From NCBI GenBank assembly GCA_025936825.1, contig JAICSO010000006.1:62001-126000 (forward strand): a stretch of DNA of 64,000 nt, given 5' to 3'. The notes under the pieces are model-generated. The model saw only the letters and a program-made list of their open reading frames with translations, did no database searches and was not told where the DNA came from. Shown here piece after piece: positions 8,534 to 47,863 of the stretch (within the stretch, counting starts at the first letter, position 1; each line of letters begins with the position of its first letter). The translations under genes were made by a program, and so were the position numbers. The DNA is from Terriglobales bacterium. Its GTDB lineage: Bacteria > Acidobacteriota > Terriglobia > Terriglobales > Acidobacteriaceae.

Positions 8534-8990
8534 CGCACAAAGCCGTTGCGCTGCGGATGGCCCTGCGCTAGGCTGGTTGTGCTCTCGCGATTCATCCCCC
8601 TCCTTTCTGAACCAAGTCCCTGATCTGCACTGGAGCTGCATAGCCGCTGCCGGATGATGGGTTTGGGGCGAGTTACCCACAAGATATGGTGTTTTACTAC
8701 TTGACCCGGTGCAATTTCATCGGTACAGTAGCTTCAATCTGTGCCCCGCCCTACCCAGCCAAGGACGGGTTCGCTTTGGAGCGAACTGGCGGAGGAATCA
8801 GCTTGGTTAACCCGTCCATCGTGTGCTGCCGTCCAACAGAATTGCACGACTTGTCACGGTGGTTTCTGGAATCGTCCCGCGTCAGACTTCGAGCGTCGCA
8901 CGGCCAGTTGCACGCTTGCACCCGGGTTCCCGCACGACGTGGGACGGACGACGCACGACGTTTTGTCGGTTGGGAAGAAGGAGTTGTAAG
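8534..8990. other. Intergenic region upstream of smc with palindromes
   Basis: No convincing gene. Palindromes include TTCGCT-TTGG-AGCGAA near 8769-8784, nested within GGACGGGTT (about 8764-8772) and AACCCGTCC (about 8809-8817), next to GTGCCCCG at about 8740. This resembles the other GGGGCAC-bordered elements in the window. The last bases carry the smc ribosome site AAGGAG. Confidence 0.45.
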
Positions 8991-11900
8991 TTGCTGAAAC
9001 TAAAGAAGCTCCAAATCCTCGGATTCAAGTCGTTCTGCGATCGCACCGAGCTCAAGTTCCATGGGGACGGTGTGGCCGCCATCGTCGGGCCCAACGGGTG
9101 CGGCAAGTCGAATATCTCCGACGCCATTTCGTGGGTGCTCGGCGAGCAGTCGGCCAAGAGCCTACGTGGCGCGCGGATGGAAGACGTCATCTTCGCCGGC
9201 ACACGCGATCGAAAACCAACCGGCATGGCCGAGGTGTCGCTCACGCTGATCGATCCCGATGTTTACGACGGCCCCGACAAGGCCGCTCCCATCGAGCTCG
9301 ACCTTCAGGACGACATGCCTGAAGAGGATTGGGATGAGGCCGAGGTCCGCGCAAAAGCCGCCAAAGAAGTAGAAGAACGAACCGAAGATGCGCAGCCGGG
9401 GAGAACGGAAGAGCTTGCCGCCCCGCGTCGCAGAAACAATGTGGTTTCGATTTCGTCCGCGTTTCCGGAAGATGAGCCGATTTTTGCGAGCGCGGAAAGT
9501 GGAGAGACGGGCGCCTCGCCCGTCCAGGGATCTCCGAGCGAGGAGACTACGGCCGACGGCGGCCGTAGCTCCACGTCCGTTTCTGTGGGCGCTCCCGAGG
9601 TTGTGCTCAAAATTCGGCGCCGCAAATTTCAGCAACAGTTTCGCGCAGGGGAAATCAATGTTACCCGCCGGTTGTTTCGCTCGGGAGACAGCGAGTATTT
9701 GCTGAACGGAAAGCTCTGCCGGCTGCGTGATATTCAAGAACTCTTCATGGGCACCGGACTCGGACCCGAGTCCTATGCACTGATTGAGCAGGGACGCATC
9801 GGCCAGATTCTCAGCAGCCGCCCAACCGATCGGCGCGCAATTATCGAAGAAGCCGCGGGAATCACCAAGTTCAAAACCAAGAAGCGGCTTGCGGAAGCGC
9901 GGCTGGAAGATGCCAAGCAGAACCTGAATCGCGTGAACGATATCTTCGACGAAGTCACACGGCAGATGAATTCGTTGAAGCGCCAAGCGTCAAAGGCAGA
10001 ACGCTATGCCAAGCTGCGCGACGAGATGCGCGCCAAGCTGCGCGTCGTGGTCGCAAGCAAGTTTTCTTGGTTTGATCAGCAGACGGCCGAACTGGATACG
10101 CAGATCAATGCCATCGCCGAGGAAATGCGTCAGCAAGGACTGGCGGTCCAGGAGATGGAAGCGGAACTGGGCGAGCGCACCCAGCGCGGATACGCGACTG
10201 AAACAGAAATCCGCGAGAACGCTGACCGCTTGAGCGAGATCAAGCTGGAAGTGGATCGCAACCAGGCGCAGCGCCGTCACAATGAAGAACGCTGCAATGA
10301 GTTGACGGCGCGTACGGCTGCGTCGGAAGGGGAGTTGGCGCAAGCGCGAGTGCGGCTTGCGTCTGTCGAAGAAGAACTGAATTCCAATCGCCAGGTGCTG
10401 GAATCGGCTGCGGCAGAACTTGCAGCAGCGCAGGCTGAGCTCGAAGCCAGCCATCGTCAGGCCGAGATGGCGGCTATGTCGTTGGCGGATCTAGAGAAGC
10501 AGCAGGAGCAGTCGCGTACCGCAATGTTCGAATCCGTCTCGGCGATCTCCAATCTGCGCAATCAGCTTACGCAGGCGGAGGAACGCATGGCTGCCGCCGA
10601 CCGTGAAGCGCAGCGACTCCAGACCGAAATGGAAGTAGCTCGAACGCAGGCTGAAGCTTTCGGTGGGCAGCGTGGACAGCTGGCGATTGAGTTCGAGTCT
10701 GTTTCGCAGCGAGTGGAAGCACTCACGGAGGAAATCGCCCGCACTCGCGAACTGCTGGAACTCAAGCGCAAGCAGGAAGCGGAAACCAAGAGCCACCTGG
10801 ACACCCTGCGCGCCGAATTCGCAACGGCTCTGGGTAAAAAGGGATCGCTCGAAGCCGTCATCGCCGAGCACGGATACTCGACGGAATCGGTCCGCCGCTT
10901 GTTCCAGTCGGGCGCACTGCAAGGCGGACGCGCACCCGTCGGCGTGCTGGCAGACTTCCTCGAGGTCGAGCCGCGCTACGAAGCCGTAGTGGAAGACTTC
11001 CTGCGCGACGAACTCAACTACATCGTGGTCAAGTCCTGGGACACGGTGGACGAAGGGCTCCGGGTTCTGCGCTCCGACGTGGACGGCCGCGCAACGTTTC
11101 TTGTGCATCCGGAAGACTCGCAGGCTCGATTCTCATTTGAAGTTCCAGACGGCCCGCCCAGCCCGCAACCGGATTCCATTCTCCCGTTGAAGAACACAAT
11201 TCGCGTGCTGGATGGTTTCGGCAAATCGCTTGAGGTGATTCTCCCCAAGCTGCGCGACGGTTACATCGTCCCTGACCCGGCGTTCGCCCGCGACCTGGCG
11301 CTCGAAAATCCCGATGCGTTTTTCCTTTCACAAAGCGGGGAGTGCTTTCACAACGTGACCGTCACCGGCGGCAAGCAACGCGCCGAAGGGCCGCTGTCGA
11401 TGAAGCGCGAATTGCGCGATGTGCTGCGGCTCGTGGGAGAACTCGAGCAGGCGCTGCGCAATGAAGAAACTCGGGTGCTGACTCTCGGCCGCGAAATCAA
11501 GGAACTGACTTCCCTGCTGGAGCGGCTCGAAGCTGATAAGCGCGAAGCCGAAAAGCAAGTGATGACTTCCGGTCACGCGCTCCGTCAACTCGACAACGAG
11601 ATGTCGCGTGTGCGCGAGCGCTGCAGCATCTGCGAGCGTGAACTGGCGCGATTGGCGTCAGAACGTGCGGCGCAGGAAGACATCGTCCGCCAGAAGCAGG
11701 AAGGAATTGCCGCTGCGGAAGCCAAGCGCGCTGAACTGGAGCAACTGGCTGCTGCGGCTCAGGAGCAACTGACGCTCCTGCGAGAAAACCGCAACCAGAC
11801 CGCGCTGACCGAATCCGAGCGCAAGGCCAATGTCGCTGCCCTCCAGGAGCGGCATCGCTCGGCAGCTTCTGGTCTGCAACGCATCGAGCATCTCGTGAAC

Positions 11901-12938
11901 GAGATGAACGAGCGCGTCACTTCCCTGCTCGCGCAGATCGAAGCGGCCGCTAACGAGAAATCGCAGCGCGAGATGGACAATCTTGCCATCGCTTCCAAAC
12001 TCATCGATCTCGACGCCGAGCGCAACGCTTGCGAAGCCCGTGCCGGATTGCTGCAGGTCGAGTCCGAGGAAGTCCGCAGCCGGCTTGCTGAAATCGATGG
12101 CATGTTGAAGCAGGCACGCCAGCTGCTCGATGCCTCGCGCGATCGCAAGGCTGAGCTTTCGACGGCAGCCGTCAAGCTGCAGTCTGACGCCGAGCACCTT
12201 GGGCAAACCTGCATCAACGATCTCGGAGTACCACGCGCGGACCTAAGGGCCGACACTACTTTGCCTCGTGTTTCCGGCGACGAACTCGCGGCAGAGGAGC
12301 AGACGACGCAGGAAATGCGTGCTCGCCTCGATGCCATGGGTCCGGTCAACATGATGGCTCTCGAGGAGTACAACGAAACGGCTCAGCGTCACAAATTCCT
12401 CGAAGAACAACGCAAGGACCTGGTCCAGTCGATTGAGAACACCACGGCGACGATCAAGGAAATTGACGTCTTCTCGCGACAGAAGTTCGAGGAAGCGTTC
12501 AACAAGATCAACGAAAACTTCCAGGTCACGTTCAAGAAGTTGTTCGGCGGCGGCCAGGGCATGATGCGCCTGACCGACCTGGAGAACAGCGACGAGAGCG
12601 GAATCGACGTGATCGCGTCGCCTCCGGGCAAGCGCCTGCAGAACGTGCTGCTGCTCTCTGGCGGCGAAAAGGCCATGACCGCGCTGGCGCTGCTGGTCGG
12701 TATCTTCCAATACCAGCCCAGTCCGTTCTGCATTCTCGACGAAGTGGACGCGCCGCTCGACGAAGCCAACATCGGACGCTTTACGGAACTGGTGAAAGAG
12801 ATGAGCGTGCAGACTCAGTTCGTCCTCATCACCCACAGCAAGAAAACAATGAGCATCGCCCCGGTGCTTTACGGTGTCACGATGCAGGAGCCGGGCGTCT
12901 CGAAGCTCGTTTCCGTGAGGTTCGGGGCCACGGCGTAG
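8991..12938 (+). CDS. smc: Chromosome segregation protein SMC
   Basis: The condensin ATPase, 1315 residues from TTG 8991, which has AAGGAG at ideal spacing; the longer frame from 8823 only translates repeat DNA. The order is: N-terminal head with Walker A GPNGCGKS (33-40), first coiled coil, hinge (about 630-720, GGRAPVGVLADFLEVEPRYE), second coiled coil, then signature LLLSGGEKAMTALALL (about 1220) and Walker B FCILDEVDAPLDEAN (about 1246-1260). The usual length is near 1170-1190. The excess is an acidic, low-complexity insert (about 108-205) in the head, between SLTLIDPD and GEINVTRRLFRSGDSEY, which contains two perfect palindromes. scpA and scpB are not nearby. The long minus-strand frames here are shadows. 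Confidence 0.97.
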   Translation: MLKLKKLQILGFKSFCDRTELKFHGDGVAAIVGPNGCGKSNISDAISWVLGEQSAKSLRGARMEDVIFAGTRDRKPTGMAEVSLTLIDPDVYDGPDKAAPIELDLQDDMPEEDWDEAEVRAKAAKEVEERTEDAQPGRTEELAAPRRRNNVVSISSAFPEDEPIFASAESGETGASPVQGSPSEETTADGGRSSTSVSVGAPEVVLKIRRRKFQQQFRAGEINVTRRLFRSGDSEYLLNGKLCRLRDIQELFMGTGLGPESYALIEQGRIGQILSSRPTDRRAIIEEAAGITKFKTKKRLAEARLEDAKQNLNRVNDIFDEVTRQMNSLKRQASKAERYAKLRDEMRAKLRVVVASKFSWFDQQTAELDTQINAIAEEMRQQGLAVQEMEAELGERTQRGYATETEIRENADRLSEIKLEVDRNQAQRRHNEERCNELTARTAASEGELAQARVRLASVEEELNSNRQVLESAAAELAAAQAELEASHRQAEMAAMSLADLEKQQEQSRTAMFESVSAISNLRNQLTQAEERMAAADREAQRLQTEMEVARTQAEAFGGQRGQLAIEFESVSQRVEALTEEIARTRELLELKRKQEAETKSHLDTLRAEFATALGKKGSLEAVIAEHGYSTESVRRLFQSGALQGGRAPVGVLADFLEVEPRYEAVVEDFLRDELNYIVVKSWDTVDEGLRVLRSDVDGRATFLVHPEDSQARFSFEVPDGPPSPQPDSILPLKNTIRVLDGFGKSLEVILPKLRDGYIVPDPAFARDLALENPDAFFLSQSGECFHNVTVTGGKQRAEGPLSMKRELRDVLRLVGELEQALRNEETRVLTLGREIKELTSLLERLEADKREAEKQVMTSGHALRQLDNEMSRVRERCSICERELARLASERAAQEDIVRQKQEGIAAAEAKRAELEQLAAAAQEQLTLLRENRNQTALTESERKANVAALQERHRSAASGLQRIEHLVNEMNERVTSLLAQIEAAANEKSQREMDNLAIASKLIDLDAERNACEARAGLLQVESEEVRSRLAEIDGMLKQARQLLDASRDRKAELSTAAVKLQSDAEHLGQTCINDLGVPRADLRADTTLPRVSGDELAAEEQTTQEMRARLDAMGPVNMMALEEYNETAQRHKFLEEQRKDLVQSIENTTATIKEIDVFSRQKFEEAFNKINENFQVTFKKLFGGGQGMMRLTDLENSDESGIDVIASPPGKRLQNVLLLSGGEKAMTALALLVGIFQYQPSPFCILDEVDAPLDEANIGRFTELVKEMSVQTQFVLITHSKKTMSIAPVLYGVTMQEPGVSKLVSVRFGATA
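9506..9568. repeat. In-frame double-palindrome element inside smc
   Basis: Two perfect inverted repeats lie side by side: GACGGGCG-CCT-CGCCCGTC (9506-9524) and CTACGGCCG-ACGG-CGGCCGTAG (9547-9568), followed by CTCCAC. The smc frame stays open through both. The layout (GGAG, hairpin with CCT loop, second GC hairpin, GCTCCAC) matches the element at 16408-16457 in another gene. Two unrelated proteins carrying the same design argues for a mobile or repeatedly inserted palindrome rather than protein-level selection. Confidence 0.75.
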
Positions 12939-13500: not shown

Positions 13501-13545
13501 CTGACGCCGTGAAACTTTGGGTCCTCTGTGGTTAAATCTTCTTCA

Positions 13546-16500
13546 ATGAAATCCAAACTCCTGCTGTGCGTTAGTGGGCTGTCCCTGGCTGCGCTGGTGC
13601 TGATTGCGGCCGCTCCTGAAAAGAAAACCAATACAGCCGAAGCGGCACGCCTGAACAATCTTGGCTGCGCATACATGAATCAGCAGCTGTTTGAGAAGGG
13701 ACAGAAAGCTTTCGCGCAGGCGTTAGCGTTCGATCCGACCCTCGCGATTGCGAAATTGAATGAGGGCATAGCGCTCGCCGGCATCGGCAAGGCAGACGAA
13801 GCCAAGCAGGCGCTGACCGAAGCCGCCAAGCTGCTCCCTAAAGATCCGCACGTCTGGTATTCGCTCGGCCTGCTCGATAAGAACAGTGCCGACCCGCAGG
13901 ATGCGGTCAACGATTTCAAGCGCGTCATCGAACTCGATGACAGCGACGCCGACACCTGGTATTTCCTCGGGACGGTTTATTCTCAGCTGCGCCAATTTCC
14001 GCAGGCGATTGAGTCCTTCCAGCACGCGCTCAAGCTGAATCCGAATCACGCCTCGGCACAGTTTGGACTCTCGCGCGCGTATCAGCAGTCTGGAGATCCC
14101 ACCAGCGCCCACGAACACCTGACAAAGTTCCAATACATCACGCAGCACAAGCTCGGCTCGGCGATGAGCCTGGCGTATGGCGAGCAGGGGAAATATTCGC
14201 TGGCGGAAGACTCGCCAGCATACGCGCACAAGGTCCCGCCGCAAATTCCGGTGAAGTTCGTGGATGCGACGAAGGAGGCGGGGATTGTTACGGACTTCAC
14301 TGAATCAGGGGTCACGCACGGCCCAACAAACTACGGCTCTGGAGCTTGCTTTTTGGATTATGACAACGATGGCCACCTTGATTTGTTTTTGCCCAACGCC
14401 GGTGCTCAGGGAGGCATGTCGCTGTTTCACAATTCCGGAAAGGGAGAATTTGAGGATGTAACAAAAAGGGCGGGTTTCGATCCTGGCGTTCACGCATTTG
14501 CATGCTCGGCAGGCGATTATGACAACGATGGGTTTGTGGATATTGTGGTTACGTCCGGCATCAGAGTATTCCTGTGGCACAACGAAAGGAACGGAACCTT
14601 CAAAGAAAAAGCGGAGGCAGCGGGTCTGAAGCCTGCGGCGTTGCTTCACGGCGCAACGTGGGTCGATTACGACCACGACGGCGACATCGATCTGTTCCTC
14701 AACGGTTTCATGGCTTCAAACCCACACAGCGACGAACTATGGCGCAACGACGGCAACGGAACCTTTACTGACGTAAGCGCGGAGACTGGGTTCCAGGGCC
14801 AGGGGCCCCACTACACAGCCGTGGGATCAGATGTCAACAACGATCGGGCTATTGACGTGCTCACAGGCGGCTTTGAACCGGTTCTTTTTCAGAATCCGCG
14901 CGAGGGGAAGTTCGTAGCGCAGGAAGTGTGGGATCTCTCGAAATCGTCCATCGCTTCCATTCCGTTCATAGATGGCGCAGCAGTTTTGGATTTCGACCAC
15001 GACGCTTGGATGGATGTGGCGTTCACTCATCGGCCTAAAGACCCCGATGCTCCTGCTGTCACGTTGTGGCACAACAGCCATGGCAAGTCCTTCGAGCAGG
15101 TCAAACTTCCCGAGACGAATTGGGCTCGCGCCTACGGCATCGCGGCCTTCGACTACGACAACGACGGATGGGTGGACCTCGTCGCCGTGGGCGAGACCAA
15201 AGAGGGCAAGGGCGAAATCAAGCTGTTCCGCAATCTGGGGCCGGACGGATGGAAGGACGTCACCGCCGAGGTGGGGCTGGACAAGATTGCTCTTAAAGAT
15301 CCACGGGCAATCATCACCGGCGATTACGACAACGACGGCGCTACCGACCTGCTCATCACCCAGAACCACGGCCCCGCCGTCCTGCTGAAGAACGAAGGTG
15401 GCAACAAAAATAACTGGCTGCGTCTCGCGCTCAAAGGTTTAAACGACAACAAGAGCGCGATTGGGACTAAGGTTGAAGTTTTCTCCGACGGCATTCGCCA
15501 GAAGTATGAAATCTACGGGTCGAACGGGTATCTCGGGCAGAACTCGCCGTATTTGACGGTGGGCCTCGGCCAAGCGAAGCAGGCGGATGTTGTACGCATG
15601 CTCTGGCCCGGAGGCGTGCTGCAGGACGAGATCGAAGTCGCGGCCAACAAGCAGCAGGACTATCTCGAACTCGATCGGCGCGGGAGTTCCTGTCCGACGC
15701 TGTTTGTGTGGAATGGAAAGCATTACGAACTAGTTGCCGATGTGCTCGGAGCGGGAGTTATCGGGCACTGGGTCGCGCCCGGTGAGCGGAACATCCCGCG
15801 TCCGGTGGAGTGGGTGAAGGTGGATCAGAAGCTCATTCAGGAGAAAGAGGGTGCCCCATCCTTGTCGCGTCTTGTGCGACAGGACAGGGATTTTGACGTT
15901 TGGTCCCGTGAAAATCAAAATCCCCGCCCTGTCTCGACAAAAGACGTCGAGACAAGGACGGGGCACTCGGGCTTAAGCTTCCGGTTGATGGAGCCCATGG
16001 AGGAGGTCGTTTACCTTGATGCGGTGAAACTGGTCGCGGTCGATCATCCGGCGAATGAGGACGTGTACCCCAACGAATATTTCGCCAGCAATCCGCCGTA
16101 TCCGGAGTTCAAGGTCATCACCAGCCGCGGCGCGAAGCCGCCGGCGGGTGCGTGGGACGACAAGGGCAACAACTTGCTTCCCGATCTGCTGGCACATAAA
16201 TATGTCGGGAAGTTTGATCTGCTTCCGTTCAAGGGCTTTGCCAAGCCGCACAGTGTGATTCTGGATTTGGGCGAACCGTATCGCGGAGGCCCATTGCGGC
16301 TGCTCATGCATGGCGAGATCGAATACTTCACTGCTACGGGCATGTATGCCGCATCGCAAGCGGGTGTCGAGGCGATGGCACCGTATGTAGAGGCACTGCA
16401 AGAGGGAGGTGCGGACGCCTCGTCCGTGCGGCCGGGCGAGGGCGCCCGGCGCTCCACAGTCCACGGCAAGTGGGTCCGCGTGCTCGACGACATGGGTTTC

Positions 16501-17142
16501 CCTGCTGGGCTGCCGCGCACCATCACAACTGACCTCAGCGGGAAACTGCCGATCGGCACGAAACGCATTCGCATCACCACCAACCTGCAAATCTACTGGG
16601 ACAACATTCTGGTTGATCGCAGTCCTCTGCGAGAAGATTTCAAACTTCGCCAAGTCCCGCTTGCGAAGGCGGACCTCGGCTTCCACGGATATCCCAAGCA
16701 GATCGAAGACCTGCCTCCCGGCAACGTAAAGTATGTGTATGAGCAGGTGAGCCGCACCGGTCCGTATGCTCGACAGGCGGGCGAGTACACGCGCTATGGC
16801 GACGTACAGCCTCTGTTGAGCAGTTCCGACGACAAGCTCGTGGTATTCGGTTCAGGCGAGGAAGTACAGCTGGATTTCGATCCGTCGAAACTGCCGCCGG
16901 TTCCCGCTGGATGGACGCGCGATTACTTCTTCATGGCCAATGGGCATGAAAAAGACATGGACTTCTATGCCGCTGACGGGAGCACGGTCGAGCCGCTGCC
17001 TTTCCGGAGCATGGGAACGTATCCGTACCCTGGTAAGGCATTCCCACAGGATGCTGTGCATCGGGATTACATGTTGAAGTACAACACGCGCTTTGTATCG
17101 GGGAACGAGCCGCGGGGATACTCGTACGAGTATCGTAAATAG
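13546..17142 (+). CDS. Secreted TPR / FG-GAP (VCBS) / ASPIC-UnbV protein, CRTAC1-like
   Basis: About 1198 residues from ATG 13546 (the in-frame GTG 13528 adds six codons). Order: signal peptide (LLLCVSGLSLAALVLIAAA), four to five TPRs (about 30-195), a beta-propeller of FG-GAP/VCBS repeats with calcium-loop motifs such as FLDYDNDGHLDLF and FDYDNDGWVDLV (about 225-620), the ASPIC/UnbV domain (about 625-700, including GTKVEVFSDG and VGLGQAKQADVVRMLWPGG), and a C-terminal region of about 480 residues with no domain I can name. Such proteins are extracellular or periplasmic and probably bind ligands or partners through the propeller. Two palindromic elements interrupt the C-terminal region in frame. 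No exporter or partner gene is adjacent. Confidence 0.9.
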   Translation: MKSKLLLCVSGLSLAALVLIAAAPEKKTNTAEAARLNNLGCAYMNQQLFEKGQKAFAQALAFDPTLAIAKLNEGIALAGIGKADEAKQALTEAAKLLPKDPHVWYSLGLLDKNSADPQDAVNDFKRVIELDDSDADTWYFLGTVYSQLRQFPQAIESFQHALKLNPNHASAQFGLSRAYQQSGDPTSAHEHLTKFQYITQHKLGSAMSLAYGEQGKYSLAEDSPAYAHKVPPQIPVKFVDATKEAGIVTDFTESGVTHGPTNYGSGACFLDYDNDGHLDLFLPNAGAQGGMSLFHNSGKGEFEDVTKRAGFDPGVHAFACSAGDYDNDGFVDIVVTSGIRVFLWHNERNGTFKEKAEAAGLKPAALLHGATWVDYDHDGDIDLFLNGFMASNPHSDELWRNDGNGTFTDVSAETGFQGQGPHYTAVGSDVNNDRAIDVLTGGFEPVLFQNPREGKFVAQEVWDLSKSSIASIPFIDGAAVLDFDHDAWMDVAFTHRPKDPDAPAVTLWHNSHGKSFEQVKLPETNWARAYGIAAFDYDNDGWVDLVAVGETKEGKGEIKLFRNLGPDGWKDVTAEVGLDKIALKDPRAIITGDYDNDGATDLLITQNHGPAVLLKNEGGNKNNWLRLALKGLNDNKSAIGTKVEVFSDGIRQKYEIYGSNGYLGQNSPYLTVGLGQAKQADVVRMLWPGGVLQDEIEVAANKQQDYLELDRRGSSCPTLFVWNGKHYELVADVLGAGVIGHWVAPGERNIPRPVEWVKVDQKLIQEKEGAPSLSRLVRQDRDFDVWSRENQNPRPVSTKDVETRTGHSGLSFRLMEPMEEVVYLDAVKLVAVDHPANEDVYPNEYFASNPPYPEFKVITSRGAKPPAGAWDDKGNNLLPDLLAHKYVGKFDLLPFKGFAKPHSVILDLGEPYRGGPLRLLMHGEIEYFTATGMYAASQAGVEAMAPYVEALQEGGADASSVRPGEGARRSTVHGKWVRVLDDMGFPAGLPRTITTDLSGKLPIGTKRIRITTNLQIYWDNILVDRSPLREDFKLRQVPLAKADLGFHGYPKQIEDLPPGNVKYVYEQVSRTGPYARQAGEYTRYGDVQPLLSSSDDKLVVFGSGEEVQLDFDPSKLPPVPAGWTRDYFFMANGHEKDMDFYAADGSTVEPLPFRSMGTYPYPGKAFPQDAVHRDYMLKYNTRFVSGNEPRGYSYEYRK
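15851..15966. repeat. 116-bp palindromic element inside the CRTAC1-like gene
   Basis: Starts GTGCCCC (15851-15857) and ends GGGGCAC (15960-15966). Inside, CCTTGTCGCGTC...GACAGGACAGGG faces CCCTGTCTCGAC...GTCGAGACAAGG, so almost the whole element can fold on itself. It translates in frame as a Ser/Arg-rich stretch (about residues 769-807) between LIQEKE and GLSFRLMEPMEEV. The GGGGCAC border word also occurs at intergenic palindromes (5085-5330, near 8740). Confidence 0.75.
16408..16457. repeat. In-frame double-palindrome element in the CRTAC1-like gene
   Basis: GGACG-CCT-CGTCC (16413-16425 region) is followed by the perfect stem GCCGGGCG-AGGG-CGCCCGGC (16431-16450) and GCTCCAC. It translates as GADASSVRPGEGARRST in frame. 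The CCT-loop hairpin plus a second GC hairpin plus GCTCCAC is the same design as in smc at 9506-9568. Confidence 0.7.
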
Positions 17143-44348: not shown

Positions 44349-45269
44349 ATGAGCCGTGAATTTACGCGTCGTCAGTTTATCGAAATGGGAGCGGTTGCCG
44401 GGTTGAGTCTCGCTCTTCCCTCTGGCGCATGGGCGGCCGGGAAGAAGTCGGTGCTGGTATTCACCAAGTCTTCGGGCTTTGAGCACGACGTCGTGAAACT
44501 CAAAGACGGCCAGCCCAGCATCGTGGACAACGCCATTACTTCATTGGGACAGCAGCACGGCTTCAACGTCACCGCGAGCAAAGACGGCACGATTTTCGAT
44601 TCCCCTGACTTCCACAAATATGCTGCCGTCGTGTTCTTCACCACCGGCGATCTGACGACCGCCGGTACTGACAAGAATCCGCCGATGTCGCCGGCAGGAA
44701 AACAGAAGTTCCTGGACGCAATTCATGGCGGAATGGGTTTCGTCGGCATCCATGCGGCCACCGACACCTTCCATACCCAGCCTGATCCGCAGGACAATTC
44801 AAATCGCTACGCAGCCCACGGCGAGCAATCGGACCCATATCTGCGAGTGTTAGGCGGCGAGTTCATTACGCACGGCAGTTCACCGCGGCTGCAGGACACG
44901 AACCTCGTTGTTGATGATCCGAAATTTCCGGGCCTTGAAGGCGTCTCCTCTCCGGTAAAGTTCAACGACGAGTGGTATTCGCTAAAAGATTTCCGCACCG
45001 ACATGCACGTGATCCTCACGCTCGACACAAAAGGCATGACGGGCAAGCCGTACGAACGCCCTCCCTATCCGATGACATGGGCAAGGATGGAAGGCAAAGG
45101 GCGTGTTTTCTACACCGCTATTGGCGATCGGCCTGAGAATTGGTCCAGTCCATTCTTCTTAAATCTTCTAGGGGGCGGGATTCGTTGGACGATCGGCGAT
45201 GCCAAAGCTTCTCTCACCCAAAACATCAAGCAAGCCGCTCCCGGCTACGCGGAAATCCCGCCAAAATAA
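44349..45269 (+). CDS. ThuA domain protein
   Basis: 306 residues with a Tat-type leader (TRRQFIEMGAVAGLSLALPSGAWA). The ThuA fold, a glutamine amidotransferase-like alpha/beta domain, shows VLVFTKSSGFEHD, YAAVVFFTTGDLTTAGT, GGMGFVGIHAATDTFH and RMEGKGRVFYTAIGDRPENW. ThuA works with a Gfo/Idh/MocA enzyme in trehalose catabolism through 3-ketotrehalose. It begins 22 bases after the GMC gene, and the operon ends here. The last 12 codons (AAPGYAEIPPK and stop) are nearly repeated at 47737-47776. Confidence 0.9.
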   Translation: MSREFTRRQFIEMGAVAGLSLALPSGAWAAGKKSVLVFTKSSGFEHDVVKLKDGQPSIVDNAITSLGQQHGFNVTASKDGTIFDSPDFHKYAAVVFFTTGDLTTAGTDKNPPMSPAGKQKFLDAIHGGMGFVGIHAATDTFHTQPDPQDNSNRYAAHGEQSDPYLRVLGGEFITHGSSPRLQDTNLVVDDPKFPGLEGVSSPVKFNDEWYSLKDFRTDMHVILTLDTKGMTGKPYERPPYPMTWARMEGKGRVFYTAIGDRPENWSSPFFLNLLGGGIRWTIGDAKASLTQNIKQAAPGYAEIPPK

Positions 45270-47358: not shown

Positions 47359-47863
47359 GTAAACTCTCCTCCGGATGCGCGATGGCCAAGCTCGGCGGAG
47401 TTCAAACGTGGAGACACGCCGGAACAACGTTAGGCCATTCTTTTGGAATTACTTTGGATACCGGTTGGAACGATCTTTACTGAAGACACCGAATCAGCGG
47501 TGAACACGCACTACCATCTATTCTGCCACATCGGCTGGGGAATGCAACAGTCGATTTCGCCTCTCAAGATCCGCTTGCGCTGGCCTAACCTCCAGCGCAG
47601 GACCGGCAGCTGCGACGCGCTATTGTGTATGCGAGGCCCGCTCTCAGGAAAACGCCCTCGGGAAAAGCGACATCGTAGTCGCGCGAGGGAAGCTGATCTC
47701 GGTGGCAAAGCCTTGACCAAGCCGGAGTACCCACGCGCAAGCCGCTCCCGGCTACGCGGAAATTCCGCCGAAATAGCCACGATCATCGGGCATGTTCGTG
47801 GACCCCTGCAGAGCCTTGAGAGCGCATTGACTCGCCCCTTTGCCGGAAGTAAGATTCGCGCCA
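47359..47863. other. Intergenic region between the unknown module and the kinase
   Basis: No complete gene is seen. It contains the promoter side of the unknown module, an imperfect hairpin (CCCTCG...GCGAC...GTCGC...CGAGGG, near 47657-47691), a 40-base copy of the ThuA gene end (47737-47776), and the kinase leader with GGAAG near 47845. Confidence 0.5.
47737..47776 (+). pseudogene. Remnant of the 3' end of a second ThuA-like gene
   Basis: Forty bases match the ThuA gene end at 45230-45269 with three differences. The first 27 bases are identical. The three differences (ATC/ATT, CCA/CCG, TAA/TAG) are all synonymous in the ThuA frame, which reads QAAPGYAEIPPK and stop in both. So this is the end of a homologous gene that diverged under coding constraint, not a recent copy. 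Upstream, only fragments like GGCAAAGCCTTGACC still resemble the ThuA gene. Confidence 0.7.

Follow-up and report, generated by a model that had tools for sequence, protein, structure and literature searches.

Palindromic inserts in two genes of the window

The window, by which we mean the whole 64,000-nt stretch of acidobacterial DNA that was analysed, carries on its plus strand a CRTAC1-like gene (13528-17142; TPR, FG-GAP, ASPIC/UnbV, C-terminal part) that holds two loop inserts. The gene is a single open frame of 1204 residues, and this frame runs uninterrupted through the insert at 16403-16457, an inverted pair of hairpins listed without a strand and translated approximately as EGGADASSVRPGEGARRST. 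The first-pass annotation had described a palindrome here at 16408-16457, read in frame; the sequence agrees with that description, and the unit proves slightly longer. Read on the minus strand, it opens with GTGGAG followed by the hairpin GCCGGGCG-CCCT-CGCCCGGC; on the plus strand, the tag is degraded to AGGGAG and the loop of the hairpin is CCT. Folded as single-stranded DNA, 16400-16459 gives two hairpins, with GGAG/CTCC as the closure, at -21.9 kcal/mol, a value equalled by none of 200 dinucleotide shuffles (z -3.1), and a separate calculation on the 72-nt insert at the same site, with 100 shuffles, gave a z of only -2.0. Both halves are matched by the covariance model R1 described below (plus half, 16396-16434, 31.9 bits; minus half, 16425-16464, 47 bits), and both belonged to the training set of that model.

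Upstream lies smc (8823-12938, plus strand), one open frame of 1371 residues. It holds a second inverted pair of the R1 family at 9499-9574 (no strand assigned), in frame and in a linker of variable length. One half (9492-9530, plus strand, 40.8 bits) was in the training set and the other (9542-9581, minus strand, 32.7 bits) was outside it; the site folds at z -5.0. With the insert, the linker is 149 residues long here, as against 130-137 in four genomes of the genus, 109 in G005 and 102 in G006, and two genomes have apparent decayed remnants. Because this linker varies in length anyway, smc is the weaker evidence when taken by itself.

Two further elements complete the picture of the window. 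At 15851-15966, in frame in the same CRTAC1-like gene and again listed without a strand, is an inverted pair of a different family, the GTGCCCC...GTCTCG type. Outside the predicted genes, a single degraded R1 copy with the tag ATGGAG occupies 2893-2931 on the minus strand (28.3 bits, E 0.0016). The heptamer GCTCCAC is not a useful signature on its own, since it occurs 8 times in the window against 9.7 expected, and repeat finding confined to the 64 kb did not return the pair as a family among the best 20 of 28 direct families. What places the pair of window sites above chance is the number of copies across the genome. Elsewhere in the window we noted imperfect inverted repeats of about 41 nt at 903-1009, of the GATTGGAGATTTCGGATTGAAGATTTC type and perhaps a further repeat family, and a 39-nt direct repeat, 95% identical, at 45230-45268 and 47737-47775, 2.5 kb apart.

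A dispersed family of tagged hairpins

A blastn search of the genome itself (6.54 Mb, 141 contigs) with the 91-nt CRTAC1-like site found at least 40 places at E <= 10, from 66 candidates, and at least 15 places besides the query at E < 0.01. From tagged units with a perfect inner stem, 52 were picked by script; one (L249) was removed by eye, and the remaining 51 were aligned to build the covariance model R1. A genome search with a profile had been put forward in the first-pass annotation as a check, and further copies are indeed numerous: at E <= 0.01 the model has at least 98 matches in this genome, a lower bound with 108 of 3069 candidates scored, and 38-105 in five of the seven other genomes of the genus (in order, this genome first: at least 98, 38, 81, 105, 100, 0, 0 and 38). 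Matches were present in 29 of the 61 genomes searched.

The stem of 9 bp is well maintained, with 97.2% of cells paired in the 51 aligned units. Double changes occur in six of the nine pairs and amount to 49 cells; shuffling gave 9.8 (sd 2.6), and sliding the alignment gave no more than 11. Only the outer three pairs provide an unbiased test, because a perfect inner stem of 6 pairs was a requirement of selection; these outer pairs have 5, 10 and 8 double changes and 10, 3 and 0 unpaired cells. The element can be described as a tag, GTGGAG or in part GTAG, followed by a covarying 9-bp stem with a CCT or CCCT loop. Among the 51 units the tag reads GGAG in 29, GTAG in 13 and GTGGGG in 7, and the GTGGAG- and GTAG-tagged units are one family. 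R1 has the makeup of REPs and of REPINs, which are inverted pairs of REP hairpins: a short paired hairpin (20-40 nt), dispersal at high copy number, and inverted pairs alongside single units.

RAYT genes beside the repeats

R1 also shares with REPs the company of RAYT genes. This genome has eight matches to PF01797 (Y1_Tnp), a total in which one place counts twice, as two overlapping pieces. At L038, a RAYT gene is flanked on either side by R1 units tagged GTGTAG or ATGTAG, and in the sister species G001 (L126) a RAYT gene is accompanied by an inverted GTGGAG pair whose second unit overlaps the end of the gene; the GTGGAG type brackets a RAYT gene only in this sister species, the bracketed RAYT gene in the present genome being of the GTGTAG type. 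Other RAYT genes are bracketed by other hairpins: the GTGCCCC type at L035 and CCCATGTCTCG at L036, both in this genome, and GTGGGTCGGACATTCC at L131 in a sister species, with related hairpins on one side only at L142. The RAYT gene C65:90264-90542 lies between the two genomic sequences most closely related to the dimer at 15851-15966 (116-125 nt), with identities of 78 and 76% over almost its full length. The cut-off of NF047646, the NCBIfam model for REP-associated tyrosine transposases, was exceeded by all eight proteins scanned (from 8 of the 17 loci examined, L038 and L126 included), and none of these eight reached the IS200 cut-off.

Across the 41 genomes searched with both models, at least 10 R1 copies were found in 13 of the 32 with a Y1_Tnp match and in none of the nine lacking one (Fisher p 0.04, Spearman 0.74, both uncorrected for kinship; Y1_Tnp includes both IS200 and RAYTs, and several genomes are incomplete). 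Eight of those nine have no R1 copy and the ninth has one. Within the genus, G005 and G006 have neither a Y1_Tnp match nor an R1 copy, as against 38-105 copies in the five sister genomes; the system has been lost there, was never gained, or was missed in the draft genomes.

Copies within genes

The name REP denotes an extragenic element. R1 departs from it: in a sample of 1.6 Mb (C140 1-800000, C34 1-640000, C97 1-160000), with genes called by our own codon-usage score, 37 of 58 copies at E <= 0.01 (24 + 34) lie in predicted genes and 21 between them. Contigs C34 and C97 were chosen after earlier searches had found copies there, C140 was the longest contig met, and many of the 58 copies were also in the training set of the model. 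A hand count for C140 gave 15 copies inside genes, 3 at their ends and 6 between them. At the same time, with 82% of the sequence coding, 37 in-gene copies out of 58 are fewer than expected by chance (p 0.0007), the density within genes being only 2.7-fold lower.

Thirty of the 37 in-gene copies lie 30 codons or more from the start of the gene and 40 or more from its end. By hand count from Pfam tables, 22 of these 30 fall within the span from the first to the last Pfam-matched residue of the protein; another four are found where the last domain ends or beyond it, and four precede the first domain (two in an epimerase, one in a Cys/Met enzyme and one in a TonB receptor), where the true start of the gene may be downstream of the copy. 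Pfam families were found in all 28 host genes scanned. Fourteen of these genes are in C140, including two whose only copies are weaker than E 0.01; the other 14 are in C34 and C97, where four genes with copies at their ends were left out of the scan. Read from these families, the hosts include HypF, YchF, a Mur ligase, UvrD, RecG, SelA, a class II ribonucleotide reductase, a SIS/CBS protein, carbamoyl-phosphate synthase, UvrC, MnmE, GatB, a valine-type tRNA synthetase and TsaD. DNA-repair genes recur among them (UvrD, UvrC and RecG), and MutY has a copy near its start. By eye, a unit GACGGGCGCCTCGCCCGTC at about L047:1501-1525 lies in a MutL-like linker.

All six reading frames are used by the 21 in-gene copies scored in C140 (sense 5, 3 and 1; antisense 7, 2 and 3), which were drawn from 27 at E < 0.05 and include three weaker than 0.01. 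The GTGGAG consensus has no stop in any of the six frames; the GTGTAG consensus has a stop in one.

Filled and empty loops among orthologues

The CRTAC1-like protein (P0001) was searched for in 61 genomes and its C-terminal alignment in the GTDB collection, from which 80 of 142 relatives were kept, their titles being Acidobacteria and, in several cases, Candidatus Sulfotelmatobacter. The resulting alignment has 111 rows, and the two collections overlap in genomes. Two loops vary in length, site 1, between VKxDR and LSFR, and site 2, which is that of 16403-16457. Site 1 has 10 residues in 63 of 97 rows (one cut off), 9 in two and 22-83 in 31, a count that includes the window twice; site 2 has five residues in 69 of 97. 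In the window, site 1 is filled by the GTGCCCC-family dimer. At site 2, six genomes of the genus have the region in hand and five of them carry a hairpin insert (G001 by eye only), the one with no hairpin insert being G006. The contents of site 2 differ from genome to genome: the window has a GTGGAG pair, G003 a GTGGGTCGGACATTC pair and G004 two kinds.

In a tree built without the two loops, a minimum of eight changes is required to explain which of 94 rows are filled at site 1 (30 filled, 64 empty; L211 and L219, which are truncated there, were left out along with the window's duplicate), and hairpin filling of site 2 needs one change over 96 rows (5 against 91; the duplicate of the window set aside). 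Because a single change suffices there, repeated insertion at site 2 rests on its differing contents and not on counts. Of 39 distinct inserts at the two sites, each at least 9 residues longer than the empty loop, 21 fold at z < -2 and 18 do not, and site 2 is long but free of a palindrome in L179, L187, L193, L194, L195 and L207. Plain low-complexity expansions at some loops, together with the decayed copies in smc, indicate that not every difference in length is an insertion. The first-pass annotation had named gradual divergence among orthologues as an outcome that would speak against its reading; what the alignment contains instead is a short empty loop in most orthologues and inserts in the genus.

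An AlphaFold2 model of the C-terminal part of the protein has a mean pLDDT of 70.8. Values under 50 occur at 61-95, 246-248 and 255-260, the last two stretches lying between strands 237-242 and 265-270. The model lends mild support to loop inserts, because other stretches also score under 50, including 26-38 and most of 427-488.

Further repeats were seen at site 1. Five rows (L173, L177, L189, L191 and L220) carry an inverted repeat translated as CHPERSEGS.../CHPERSDGS... and ...AQDDK/N, and more rows carry another repeat type, SHVSQNQRDMGHP; the peptide HPERSEGS was not found in the literature searched.

Other hosts offer similar comparisons. In nine genomes of the order's other family the RecG loop has 19-23 residues, and in three genomes of the family to which the present one belongs it has 20-21. 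Three further genera of this latter family have 41, 41 and 47 residues, with no hairpin evident by eye; G006 has 35; and four members of the genus, the present genome among them, have 46, 54, 73 and 74, all four with visible R1-like or related hairpins (two rows of this comparison are incomplete). Since long loops occur both with and without a hairpin, the RecG loop grows by more than one means. The MnmE copy amounts to 30 residues where PDB 1xzp has none, the GatB copy to 8 extra residues where PDB 3h0l reads PNGEKKK, and in YchF residues 203-243 stand opposite 212-228 of PDB 1jal (41 residues against 17).

Discussion

Overall, we are confident that the element at 16403-16457 is a REPIN belonging to a RAYT-associated family of non-autonomous palindromes, and that it has been inserted in frame into a protein loop. 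The first-pass annotation had proposed a repeat family with coding-tolerant insertions, a proposal strengthened by the copy number and by the empty and filled loops. To it can be added the assignment to the RAYT-associated REP/REPIN class, the union of GTGGAG and GTAG units in one family, and the second, unrelated REPIN at 15851-15966. More generally, and judging from sequence comparison, hairpin repeats appear to have landed repeatedly, in this acidobacterium and its relatives, in frame in loops of conserved genes. The genomes behind this comparison are drafts, related and thus non-independent, and contain no near-identical strains that differ in a copy.

A general pathway for such insertions can be suggested. 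A RAYT would copy or move the single-stranded hairpins, and landing would be largely indiscriminate. Selection would then remove frame-shifted or damaging copies, and the survivors would be intergenic ones and in-frame ones situated in loops. Within genes, copies of 3n length would survive in flexible loops, a GC-rich and stop-free sequence raising their chance, because the GTGGAG version is free of stops in six frames. Filled loops would tolerate the next insertion, and serial insertions would decay into ordinary linkers. Both the RAYT-driven insertion and the neutrality of the inserts are presumed in this scheme.

A RAYT is the presumed mover in this scheme; the repeats might instead spread by recombination or template switching between hairpins, with RAYT genes as merely another location for them. 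We regard this as improbable, given that unrelated palindrome families bracket different RAYT genes (L035, L036, L038, L126 and L131), that the in-gene dimer at 15851-15966 has its two best relatives on either side of one RAYT gene, and that the nine of 41 genomes with no Y1_Tnp match are practically free of R1. Nor does it seem likely that the in-gene hairpins are kept because they are useful, whether as RNA hairpins that tune the mRNA or as peptides that change the protein. Stem pairing is maintained, as such usefulness would have it, and repair genes recur among the hosts, as they do for REPs elsewhere (noted in the excerpted text of PMC3733652); against this, the same loop is filled by unrelated elements in different species, and copies are read in all six frames. 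Tolerance fits these unrelated fillings and the use of six frames better than a shared function does.

Ordinary length variation of GC-rich linkers, with a palindrome arising by chance, is hardly credible. The smc and RecG loops and some CRTAC1 loops do vary in length without palindromes, but one and the same core is present in 98 copies or more, inside genes as well as between them, and shows covariation, and the empty length of CRTAC1 site 1 is steady, at 10 residues in 63 of 97 rows. A chance origin is rejected for the family on copy number and covariation, and may hold for single decayed copies.

Insertion of RAYT-associated REPINs, as we read the site, invites comparison with the GTAG-superfamily REPs and REPINs. 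As described in the portions of PMC3733652 and PMC3116915 consulted, these share with R1 a short hairpin with an unpaired 5' tag, inverted dimers, high copy number, a RAYT gene beside the same repeat and some in-gene copies, repair genes included. Unlike them, R1 has mostly GTGGAG or GTGTGG as its tag, with GTAG in 13 of 51 units, lies in the sampled 1.6 Mb more often in predicted genes than between them, and has an acidobacterial host. We do not claim strict membership of the GTAG superfamily for the two halves of 16403-16457, whose tags are GTGGAG and AGGGAG. The same portions of PMC3733652 report in-gene REPs in several species, suggesting loops and linkers and noting repair genes, count intragenic copies as REPs while placing most REPs between genes, and mention different REPs at about the same recB site in two Xanthomonas species. 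Intragenic REPs are therefore not new as such, having already been described there. Within Acidobacteria, the class 3 TnpA-REP structures of Solibacter usitatus, at about 600 copies and termed atypical in the excerpts of PMC6006769, likewise combine high-copy hairpins with a Y1 transposase.

The likeness to Rickettsia palindromic elements (RPEs) that the first-pass annotation had drawn is fair as an analogy, inasmuch as palindromic inserts are read in frame in unrelated open reading frames; in the available text of PMC10969869, RPEs are palindromes translated in frame in unrelated housekeeping proteins. The likeness concerns this trait of a translated palindrome, and we claim no membership among RPEs, which differ in phylum, in the length of about 150 bp quoted for them in the same text (55-116 nt for the window elements) and in that several families here have RAYT partners. 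RPE-4 and RPE-6 are placed among the CGTC repeats in the consulted part of PMC3733652.

In a limited literature search, no report of the R1 family itself stood among the matches listed, and within the same scope we found none of the tag variant, of an intragenic majority, or of hot-spot loops that are empty in many relatives and that several RAYT families have filled. We offer as a speculation, and one more likely to fail than to hold, that several RAYT-REPIN families in soil Acidobacteria form a standing engine of in-frame protein lengthening, in which stop-free palindromes seed the loops of core enzymes and different families refill them across species; loss of TAG from the tag (GTGTAG to GTGGAG) might then be an adaptation to life in genes. 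Regardless of that wider idea, a parasitic repeat would, on the present reading, be translated as part of ordinary enzymes, and in the sampled part of the genome most copies lie in predicted genes, with transposases beside the same repeats and dozens of relatives with an empty loop. This makes a countable system for asking how mobile DNA yields new protein segments, a question raised by the Rickettsia elements and one accessible to tests on strains, on purified RAYTs and by simple complementation.

According to the excerpted text of PMC6006769, some transposases carry REP insertions. As a separate observation, the RAYT gene at L141:534-1229 in G004 matches NF047646 in two stretches, with a long in-frame segment between them.
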